A stretch of 64,000 nt of DNA, taken from Longibaculum muris (GTDB taxonomy: Bacteria; Bacillota_I; Bacilli_A; Erysipelotrichales; Coprobacillaceae). Shown one piece after another: positions 52,416 to 54,267 of this stretch (positions are counted from its first letter, which is position 1; each line of letters begins with the position of its first letter). Position numbers and translations under genes: made by a program. The stretch lies in NCBI RefSeq assembly GCF_004343035.1, contig NZ_SMCQ01000007.1, positions 1-64,000 on the forward strand, read 5' to 3'. The notes beneath the pieces were generated by a model, which saw only the letters and a program-made list of their open reading frames with translations, did no database searches and was not told the DNA's origin.

Positions 52416-52447
52416 AAAAAAGAACGTATTCCCCACGTTCTTTTTTT
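52416..52447 (+). terminator. Intrinsic terminator after the ABC genes
   Basis: AAAAAAGAACGT pairs with ACGTTCTTTTTTT around ATTCCCC. The preceding 100 bp (52321-52415) hold no recognisable gene, and 52450-52580 holds only the AT-rich upstream region of the next gene. Confidence 0.85.
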
Positions 52448-52590
52448 GTATATCAATATTTGCTTATTGCATATTTTTATAGGTGGATGTATAATATATT
52501 TGAAAAAGTTGTCCGAAAAAAAAGAAAAATGAGAATTTTTTGCGTATATAGTAGTAGGGGGATATTTTCTCCTTAGAAAGGATGACTTTT

Positions 52591-53628
52591 ATGGATAGTA
52601 TTGAAACATCGGCTGCAAAATTTTCTTCTGATTATTTTTTTCATTATCTTCTTCACCATTGTGACGAGGTGAGAAATCTGTTTGTTTCGCATTTGAGTGA
52701 TCACCCCATCTTGAATACGGAGCTTACTGTTGCGGATTTCTATCAACGCAAAGAAAATGCTAAAAAGCGTATTTTGGATGTTGCGGTGGTTGATGACCAG
52801 GGATATTACTATGATTTAGAGATGCAAAATGGGGATATTAACAGATCTGAAATGATTAGATTTTTTAATTATGCATCACTTTTGTTAGATTCACAAATTA
52901 ATAAAGGAAAAGACTATAATGTGAAAACAGTGAAAACGTTGATTATTTATACGGGTAAACCTATCCGTGATCTTGAGCATTTTGAACATCGTTTTGAGTT
53001 GATTGATTCTGATTATTTGATCAAGCTAAAAGACGGACCGATTGAAATTGAAATATTACAAATAGAAAGAATGGAGGAATTAGGAATGGAAGTTGTAAAT
53101 AACGATCAATTTTATCGTATTGTACATATGTTTTCGAAGAATGAAGATTTTATTGATCATCATGATGATGAATTGTATACATTAGTGCTTGATCACTATA
53201 ATAAGTATCTTAATTCAGATGAATATATTGCGAATCTACAAATAGAAAGAGATCGTCGTGCATATCATACTGGAATGATACAAAGTAGAAAAGAAGGAGT
53301 TGAGGAAGGAAAGATAATTGGAAAACAAGAGGGAATCGAAGAAGGAAAGATAATTGGAAAACAAGAGGGGATCGAAGAAGGAAAGATAATTGGGAAACAA
53401 GTGGGGATTGAAGAAGGAAAGATAATTGGTAAGCAAGAAGGAATTGAGGAAGGTATGTTAAAAGCAAAAAGGGATTATATCTTAATACTTTTTAGAAAAG
53501 AATTTCCTTATGAAGATACTCGCTTTCTTGAAAATTTATCTATTGAACAGTATGATGCGATTATGAAGTTATTGAGTGAAAATGGGAATCTAGAACAGAT
53601 TTATGAAGTATGTCATATCTTCTTATAA
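52591..53628 (+). CDS. Rpn/PD-(D/E)XK nuclease-family protein with C-terminal repeats
   Basis: 345 residues. The N-terminal part (about 15-205) matches the Rpn family (recombination-promoting nuclease, PF12784-like): FHYLLHHCDEVRNLF, KKRILDVAVVDDQGYYYDLEMQ with the D...E-x-Q core of PD-(D/E)XK nucleases, and FNYASLLLDSQINKGKDY. Residues about 225-290 are four 12-residue repeats of the EGKIIGKQEGIE type. A short conserved tail follows (FPYEDTRFLENLSIEQYDAI). Rpn proteins cut DNA; in E. coli they are linked to phage defence and the C-terminal part, made separately, blocks the toxic nuclease. The next gene encodes just such a C-terminal part. The ATG at 52591 fits AGAAAGG. Confidence 0.87.
   Translation: MDSIETSAAKFSSDYFFHYLLHHCDEVRNLFVSHLSDHPILNTELTVADFYQRKENAKKRILDVAVVDDQGYYYDLEMQNGDINRSEMIRFFNYASLLLDSQINKGKDYNVKTVKTLIIYTGKPIRDLEHFEHRFELIDSDYLIKLKDGPIEIEILQIERMEELGMEVVNNDQFYRIVHMFSKNEDFIDHHDDELYTLVLDHYNKYLNSDEYIANLQIERDRRAYHTGMIQSRKEGVEEGKIIGKQEGIEEGKIIGKQEGIEEGKIIGKQVGIEEGKIIGKQEGIEEGMLKAKRDYILILFRKEFPYEDTRFLENLSIEQYDAIMKLLSENGNLEQIYEVCHIFL
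53302..53445 (+). repeat. Four 36-bp in-frame tandem repeats
   Basis: Units at 53302, 53338, 53374 and 53410, each encoding a 12-residue EGKIIGKQEGIE-like block. Units differ by only a few bases, mostly silent, so copy number could change by slippage without breaking the frame. Confidence 0.9.
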
Positions 53629-53708
53629 TTGAGTGTTTGAGCATAGTATATAAACTTAAAGGGTATTGATTAAAATCCAAAAAGTAAAGAAAACGGAGGA
53701 AATGAACA

Positions 53709-54242
53709 ATGGGACAAAATGATAATCAGTTTTATCAGATGGAATCAAAGGATGACAATTTTGTTGATGATGATATTGCAATCCATTTGTTGGTGAGAGA
53801 ATATTACAAGGAGCATCTTGATACTGGTGAATATATTGCTTATTTACAAAGGGAAAGAGATTGCCGAGCATATCATACTGGAATGATACAAAGTAGAAAA
53901 GAAGGAGTTGAGGAAGGAAAAATACTTGGAAAACAAGAGGGAATTGAAGAAGGGATAAGGATTGGAAAAGAAGAAGGGTATGAAGAAGGGATAAGGCTTG
54001 GGAGAGAAGAAGGAAGAAAAATTGTAAAACAGAAGGAGATTGAAGAAGGAAGAAGACTTGGAAAAGAAGAAGGAATATTAGAAGTTAAAAGAGATTGTGT
54101 CTTAATGATTTTTAAAAAAGAATTTCCTTATGAAGATACACATTTTCTTGAAAATTTATCTATTGAACAGTATGATGCAATTATGAAGTTATTGAGTGAA
54201 AATGGAAGTCTTGAACAAATCCATGAAGTTTTAAAAAAATAG
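53709..54242 (+). CDS. Stand-alone Rpn C-terminal protein (no nuclease domain)
   Basis: 177 residues. The start aligns with about residue 170 of the upstream Rpn protein (NDNQFYQMESKDDNFVDDD against NNDQFYRIVHMFSKNEDFID). From there both run together: AYHTGMIQSRKEGVEEGK, then EG/GK-rich repeats (here irregular, with IRIGKEEGYEEGIRLG), then FPYEDTHFLENLSIEQYDAI. The PD-(D/E)XK core is absent. It has its own CGGAGGA site 9 nt before ATG, so it is a real gene or a recent partial duplicate. By analogy to RpnS it could be an inhibitor of the neighbouring nuclease; a decaying paralogue is the alternative. Confidence 0.75.
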   Translation: MGQNDNQFYQMESKDDNFVDDDIAIHLLVREYYKEHLDTGEYIAYLQRERDCRAYHTGMIQSRKEGVEEGKILGKQEGIEEGIRIGKEEGYEEGIRLGREEGRKIVKQKEIEEGRRLGKEEGILEVKRDCVLMIFKKEFPYEDTHFLENLSIEQYDAIMKLLSENGSLEQIHEVLKK

Positions 54243-54264
54243 GGTCAACTTCTCGTTGACCCTA
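54240..54264. terminator. Bidirectional terminator between convergent genes
   Basis: AGGGTCAAC and GTTGACCCT around TTCTC, overlapping the stop of the Rpn-like gene and just past the end of the HAD gene. Confidence 0.75.
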
Positions 54265-54267
54265 TAA

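Follow-up and report, generated by a model that had tools for sequence, protein, structure and literature searches.

The window, a stretch of 64,000 nucleotides of Longibaculum muris DNA (contig NZ_SMCQ01000007.1), contains on its forward strand two adjacent genes, the second of which repeats only the C-terminal region of the first. The question that this locus raises is whether the second gene encodes a working partner of the nuclease specified by the first or is what a partial duplication left behind, and, if it does work, whether it acts on its neighbor. Gene 1 (rpnL-like; 52591–53628, forward strand) encodes 345 amino acids, with a PD-(D/E)XK nuclease domain followed by a helical C-terminal tail according to Pfam, TIGR01784, AF2, and Foldseek. 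Gene 2 (rpnS-like; 53709–54242, forward strand) encodes 177 amino acids and was recognized as a free-standing copy of the gene 1 tail from its open frame, homology, and position in a tree. We refer to the full-length nuclease and the tail-only protein as L and S, respectively. Position 52591 was preferred as the start of gene 1, given its proper spacing to the ribosome site; the first ATG of the frame, at 52582 (348 amino acids), abuts the AAAGG.

Judged by its sequence, the product of gene 1 belongs to the Rpn-type PD-(D/E)XK nucleases and retains the predicted catalytic residues, in agreement with the original prediction of an Rpn nuclease. It scored 29.0 bits against Pfam PDDEXK_2 (PF12784), just above the cut-off of 27.4, and 34.5 bits against TIGR01784 (Rpn), under the cut-off of 52.1. 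Since PDDEXK_2 was barely over its cut-off, the subfamily appears to be distant from E. coli Rpn. Alignment placed the putative catalytic Asp at D63 (52777–52779) and the Glu-x-Gln motif at E77 (52819–52821) and Q79 (52825–52827), all on the forward strand and numbered from 52591; D63 and E77 were invariant and Q79 was at least 90% conserved among 56 aligned relatives, with the catalytic role being assigned from the PD-(D/E)XK family. The AF2 model (pLDDT of 79.9) resembled a nuclease in its front part and was helical in its tail. The top Foldseek match to this model was 6r0j, the N-terminal domain of YqgP (E of 0.011), and the PD-(D/E)XK-type entries EcoO109I and EndoMS were among the hits that followed; all matches were weak, and none had an E below 0.001. 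A sequence search of structures with A1 returned nothing. The long helix of the tail carries variable four-residue repeats, as in Rpn proteins.

Gene 2 matched only residues 172 to 344 of the 348–amino acid frame of gene 1 (65% identity, E of 5.8e-58), so that the C-terminal region alone is represented, as had been predicted. The likeness of the two genes is not due to chance because dN/dS between them was 0.27, a value that mixes constraint on L with constraint on S. The initiation codon of gene 2 aligned with an ATG at 53086 that lies in frame within gene 1, and the predicted ribosome site of its own was read from the sequence as GGAGG at 53695–53699 (forward strand), aligned with an internal site of gene 1; GGAGG lies 8 to 9 nucleotides 5' of both codons. 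The ribosome site of gene 2 was plausibly inherited from this internal site. Similarity between the DNA 5' of the gene 2 start and the internal site was not significant (p of 0.088), and such carry-over was clear in E. coli rpnE/ypaA and in the relatives L110 and L163. In the AF2 model of the gene 2 protein (pTM of 0.38), a helix spanned residues 40 to 138, and the predicted fold combined a single very long helix with two short ones. A Foldseek search with this model gave no match to 7TH0, the compact, dimerizing three-helix bundle of an RpnS antitoxin, and nothing useful. Comparison of gene 2 with its own orthologues covered a single genome of the genus.

An internal start near residue 170 of gene 1 had been proposed as something to look for, and a candidate was found at residue 166 (169 if counted from 52582), where GGAGG (53073–53077, forward strand) precedes the ATG at 53086–53088 by 8 nucleotides. 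The assignment is based on this motif and on codon bias. In all 13 subfamily L genes whose nuclease domain ends in an E-x-x-x-M motif, GGAGG was present at a spacing of 8, and within the subfamily of the window the residues encoded there vary (EE, EA, ED) while GGAGG stays. The codon for the key Glu was GAG in 13 of 13 L genes, whereas GAG was used at 97 of the 416 remaining Glu positions of these genes (Fisher p of 1.2e-8, which is optimistic, given that the motif was picked after the sites had been viewed and that the rows are related rather than independent). The internal start therefore appears to be under selection at the codon level. L genes that have a free-standing S partner retain the internal site, as seen in the window and in C5, L110, L114, L126, and L128. 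Other rpn subfamilies contained different internal motifs resembling ribosome sites, such as GGTGAT before MYDKF, close to where the nuclease domain ends.

The two genes are likely to be expressed as a single transcript. The 80-nucleotide gap between them contained no terminator and no notable hairpin, and strong hairpins flank the pair. One of these, followed by a T run, lies 5' of gene 1 (52416–52446, forward strand; z of –6.0) and is a probable terminator for the preceding ABC transporter genes; the other lies directly 3' of gene 2 (54239–54265, strand not assigned; z of –5.2) and is a probable terminator common to gene 2 and the convergent gene. A promoter scan yielded fewer sites than did shuffled sequences, and the window had no match in Rfam. 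The adjoining genes, as read from their translations, seem to have unremarkable functions in metabolism and transport. PADLOC, with which the two proteins were scanned, matched neither of them.

The arrangement has precedents in E. coli. As described in the main text of PMC10327210, rpnE/ypaA (rpnES) and rpnC-rpnCS each consist of a nuclease gene followed by a free-standing C-terminal copy, RpnS blocks RpnL, the free-standing downstream rpnS is produced, and YpaA has been detected as a protein. The two E. coli loci described there share with the window pair a downstream copy of the tail, retention of the internal start, and a separate origin for each locus (PMC10327210), as well as unequal repeat numbers in every allele that we read. 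The ypaA gene of E. coli K-12 reproduces both the ribosome site and the start located inside rpnE, and it contains one additional tetrad. Unlike these loci, the window pair belongs to a distant subfamily and its S is longer (177 amino acids versus about 60, and versus about 50 for RpnAS), with its internal start about 60 residues before the repeats, compared with 8 to 20 in published cases. The C. difficile rpn gene resembles gene 1 in being a Gram-positive rpn gene with an internal start, and its internal RpnS has been shown in a heterologous test; in contrast to the situation in the window, the main text mentions no free-standing partner for it (PMC10327210). PF14261 (DUF4351) is described in the same text as naming separate RpnS proteins in some species (PMC10327210), and these proteins would have the same role as the S protein of gene 2; no member of A2 matched PF14261. 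The two-gene layout, separate origins, and expression of the free copy are thus already known from E. coli, and we describe them here in a distant subfamily. The gene-within-gene antitoxin and its free-standing copies are thereby extended to another bacterial family, and this extension is accompanied by a codon-level sign of selection on the internal start.

We consider it probable that the locus is an Rpn module, composed of L and an internal S, to which a selected free-standing S was added by partial duplication. The data underlying this reading are the homology, the intact active site, the conserved internal start, the recurrence of the pair, and signs of purifying selection; expression, binding, inhibition, and phage defense are what we infer for the L and S proteins of the window. 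According to this reading, the nuclease gene would yield two proteins, a toxic full-length L and an inhibitory tail S made from the internal start, and the free S would have been born when the 3' half of this gene was duplicated, would probably be cotranscribed with it, and would be kept by selection. The tail, with its long helix and two short helices, may pair with its counterpart in L and so turn the nuclease off, by analogy with E. coli RpnA. The extra S might add to the inhibition of its neighbor or, given its different repeat number, act on L or S by another route. Several observations weigh against this reading: the unequal repeats of L and S, the length of S and the distance of its internal start from the repeats compared with published cases, the TIGR01784 score under the cut-off, the lack of PADLOC matches, the ordinary neighboring genes, and the single genome of the genus, which offers no orthologue of gene 2. 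The product of gene 2 most likely still acts on Rpn as a working RpnS-like protein. The suggestion that the tail had been copied out as a separate gene thus stood with regard to the free-standing copy; the tail has not been moved out, however, given that gene 1 keeps its internal start, and the locus would therefore make three products. For the same reason, and because of a mismatch in repeats, the proposed two-gene toxin-antitoxin pair needs revision. The copy itself is of the RpnS type and bears marks of purifying selection.

This mismatch concerns the four-residue repeats (xxEG or xxxG), whose coordinates were taken from the sequence: the stretch in gene 1 comprises 59 residues (53290–53466, forward strand) and that in gene 2 comprises 63 (53898–54086, forward strand). 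The free-standing S therefore does not have the same repeat number as its L; the internal product is unaffected. For RpnC, one extra four-residue repeat abolished neutralization, and the nuclease was blocked solely by an S of equal repeat number (PMC10327210). Given this specificity, naming gene 2 as the antitoxin for gene 1 would be unsafe: its relation to its neighbor may be less direct than that of a simple antitoxin, and there is real doubt that it simply neutralizes gene 1. Inequality was also found elsewhere. In the family, repeat lengths of L and S differed in 8 of 8 repeat-bearing pairs, 6 of them by a multiple of four (these pairs exclude L205a as well as L118, L124, L128, and L133, whose tails were poor, decayed, or masked in part). 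Eleven of 14 length comparisons were unequal, with loose anchors for the differences in L145 and L114, and the three equal ones (L110, L163, and L205b) were all without repeats. Among E. coli loci picked for variety, and thus nonrandomly, from lists of 60 matches, 18 rpnE loci gave nine distinct L/S length combinations and eight rpnC loci with a downstream copy gave six, none of them equal. The main text of PMC10327210 does not comment on repeat numbers of the downstream copies, and among titles and abstracts we found no further paper addressing those of free-standing RpnS. These observations present a testable conflict, in that the published specificity calls for equal repeats and yet none of the repeat-bearing natural pairs of L and free S that we read was matched, those of E. 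coli included.

One resolution is that free S has been retuned so that it misfits its neighbor, with L being inhibited by the always-matched internal S, and that free S either blocks other Rpn variants (from other loci, strains, or incoming DNA) or mixes with internal S and loosens inhibition. We regard this alternative as possible, though clearly less probable than the preferred reading. The unequal lengths in all three sets, the retention of the internal start by partnered L genes, and the published repeat-number specificity (PMC10327210) are in its favor. Random re-pairing would be expected to yield few matches in any case (0.55, 0, and 0.25 for the three sets), however, so that the sets show that repeat numbers are uncoupled and do not show avoidance. 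In addition, the lengths of L and S tended to rise together for rpnE (Spearman coefficient of 0.60, p of 0.09) and the family (0.70, p of 0.05), with a coefficient of –0.18 for rpnC; the single RpnC experiment may fail to apply to longer tails; and P0002 had no match among phage records. No plasmid matched P0001, and the ypaA protein matched seven phage records. Active avoidance of equal repeat numbers was considered and is unsupported, given that re-pairing predicts fewer than one match per set. It is only tentatively that we put forward the more general proposal that free RpnS genes, both those of the family and those of E. coli, generally differ in repeat number from the neighboring nuclease and are kept as antitoxins of shifted specificity or as modulators of the internal antitoxin. 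If this proposal is true, duplication frees the tail from obligatory coevolution with L, and one nuclease is controlled by three proteins rather than by a two-gene toxin-antitoxin pair.

That gene 2 is functionless debris of a tandem partial duplication seems unlikely. Copies of this type do form frequently, and shortness or decay is obvious in some of them (L128, L133, and L209 among the downstream copies as well as L116); in the annotation of E. coli K-12, moreover, ypaA is a pseudogene and RpnE is inactive. The same process should, however, leave head-only pieces upstream equally often. A downstream tail-only copy was found for 15 of 63 L genes and an upstream head-only copy for 0 of 61 (p of 2.4e-5), an asymmetry unlike random debris that persisted without the loci picked via tail matches (12 of 58 versus 0 of 56, p of 2.6e-4). 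The 63 L genes were distinct sequences of more than 270 amino acids with both domains, drawn from fetched loci that were picked from search matches and are thus a nonrandom sample, together with six manually included genes (L112, two from L205, two from L208, and one from L209); tandem full L genes (L208, L209) were scored as full copies. The dN/dS values also argue against debris, being 0.16 between the paralogous S genes of C16 and C1 and, with selection on L included, low for the window pair as well, as do the intact frame and ribosome site of gene 2 and the detection of YpaA as a protein (PMC10327210).

Relatives were searched for the same pair, as had been suggested, and tail copies recur: among these recurrent pairs, the free-standing gene is not decayed throughout. 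Rpn matches were present in 26 of 43 family genomes, and in the source genome four of eight intact L genes carry a tail copy directly downstream (C7, C5, C16, and C1). In a tree built from the tails of 13 S and 23 L genes, 12 label changes were required, all forced by well-supported branches, and the 13 S genes therefore had at least 12 separate origins. Every S clustered with its own L or the closest relatives of that L, with the exception of C16 and C1, which were duplicated as a unit; L114 and L118 were on long branches, so that their placement is unsure. The most recent copy is that in L163, with a protein 100% identical to its source. That the pair instead represents two tandem nuclease genes, the second having lost its front half by deletion, is very improbable: although full tandem arrays occur (L208, L209), the gap before gene 2 contains no nuclease domain remnant, head-only remnants near L genes are rare (a 47–amino acid downstream match in L143 and a 23–amino acid overlap in L110), and the copy in L163 already begins at the internal ribosome site.

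Gene conversion that holds L and S alike was suspected by eye from the C16 and C1 pairs and is not claimed. The longest run lacking synonymous changes was of ordinary length for the window pair (p of 0.27) and for C5 (0.45), C1 (0.52), and L106 (0.75), and it reached nominal, uncorrected significance only in C16 (0.025), L126 (0.020), and L145 (0.048).

A scan of genome contigs yielded two distant loci among 88 candidates. Many rpn fragments were located at contig ends in G034, G037, G038, and G023; repeated rpn genes thus probably break assemblies, and per-genome counts are therefore uncertain. At L205 (G022:C41:14500–21500), an rpn-like gene is followed by two successive tail copies and then by a second gene with its own copy, forming a small S array. 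At L145 (G037:C20:39000–43500), a tail copy lies upstream of an intact L gene, at a distance of 158 nucleotides. The C14-type L gene has a copy within its own genome (L024; G000:C17:46000–53000) that is split into a 183–amino acid front frame and a 115–amino acid tail frame and is probably broken. A 676–amino acid frame at L120 (G032:C4:39500–43500) has an Rpn-type tail at its end and weak matches to nuclease profiles, and it may be a fusion.
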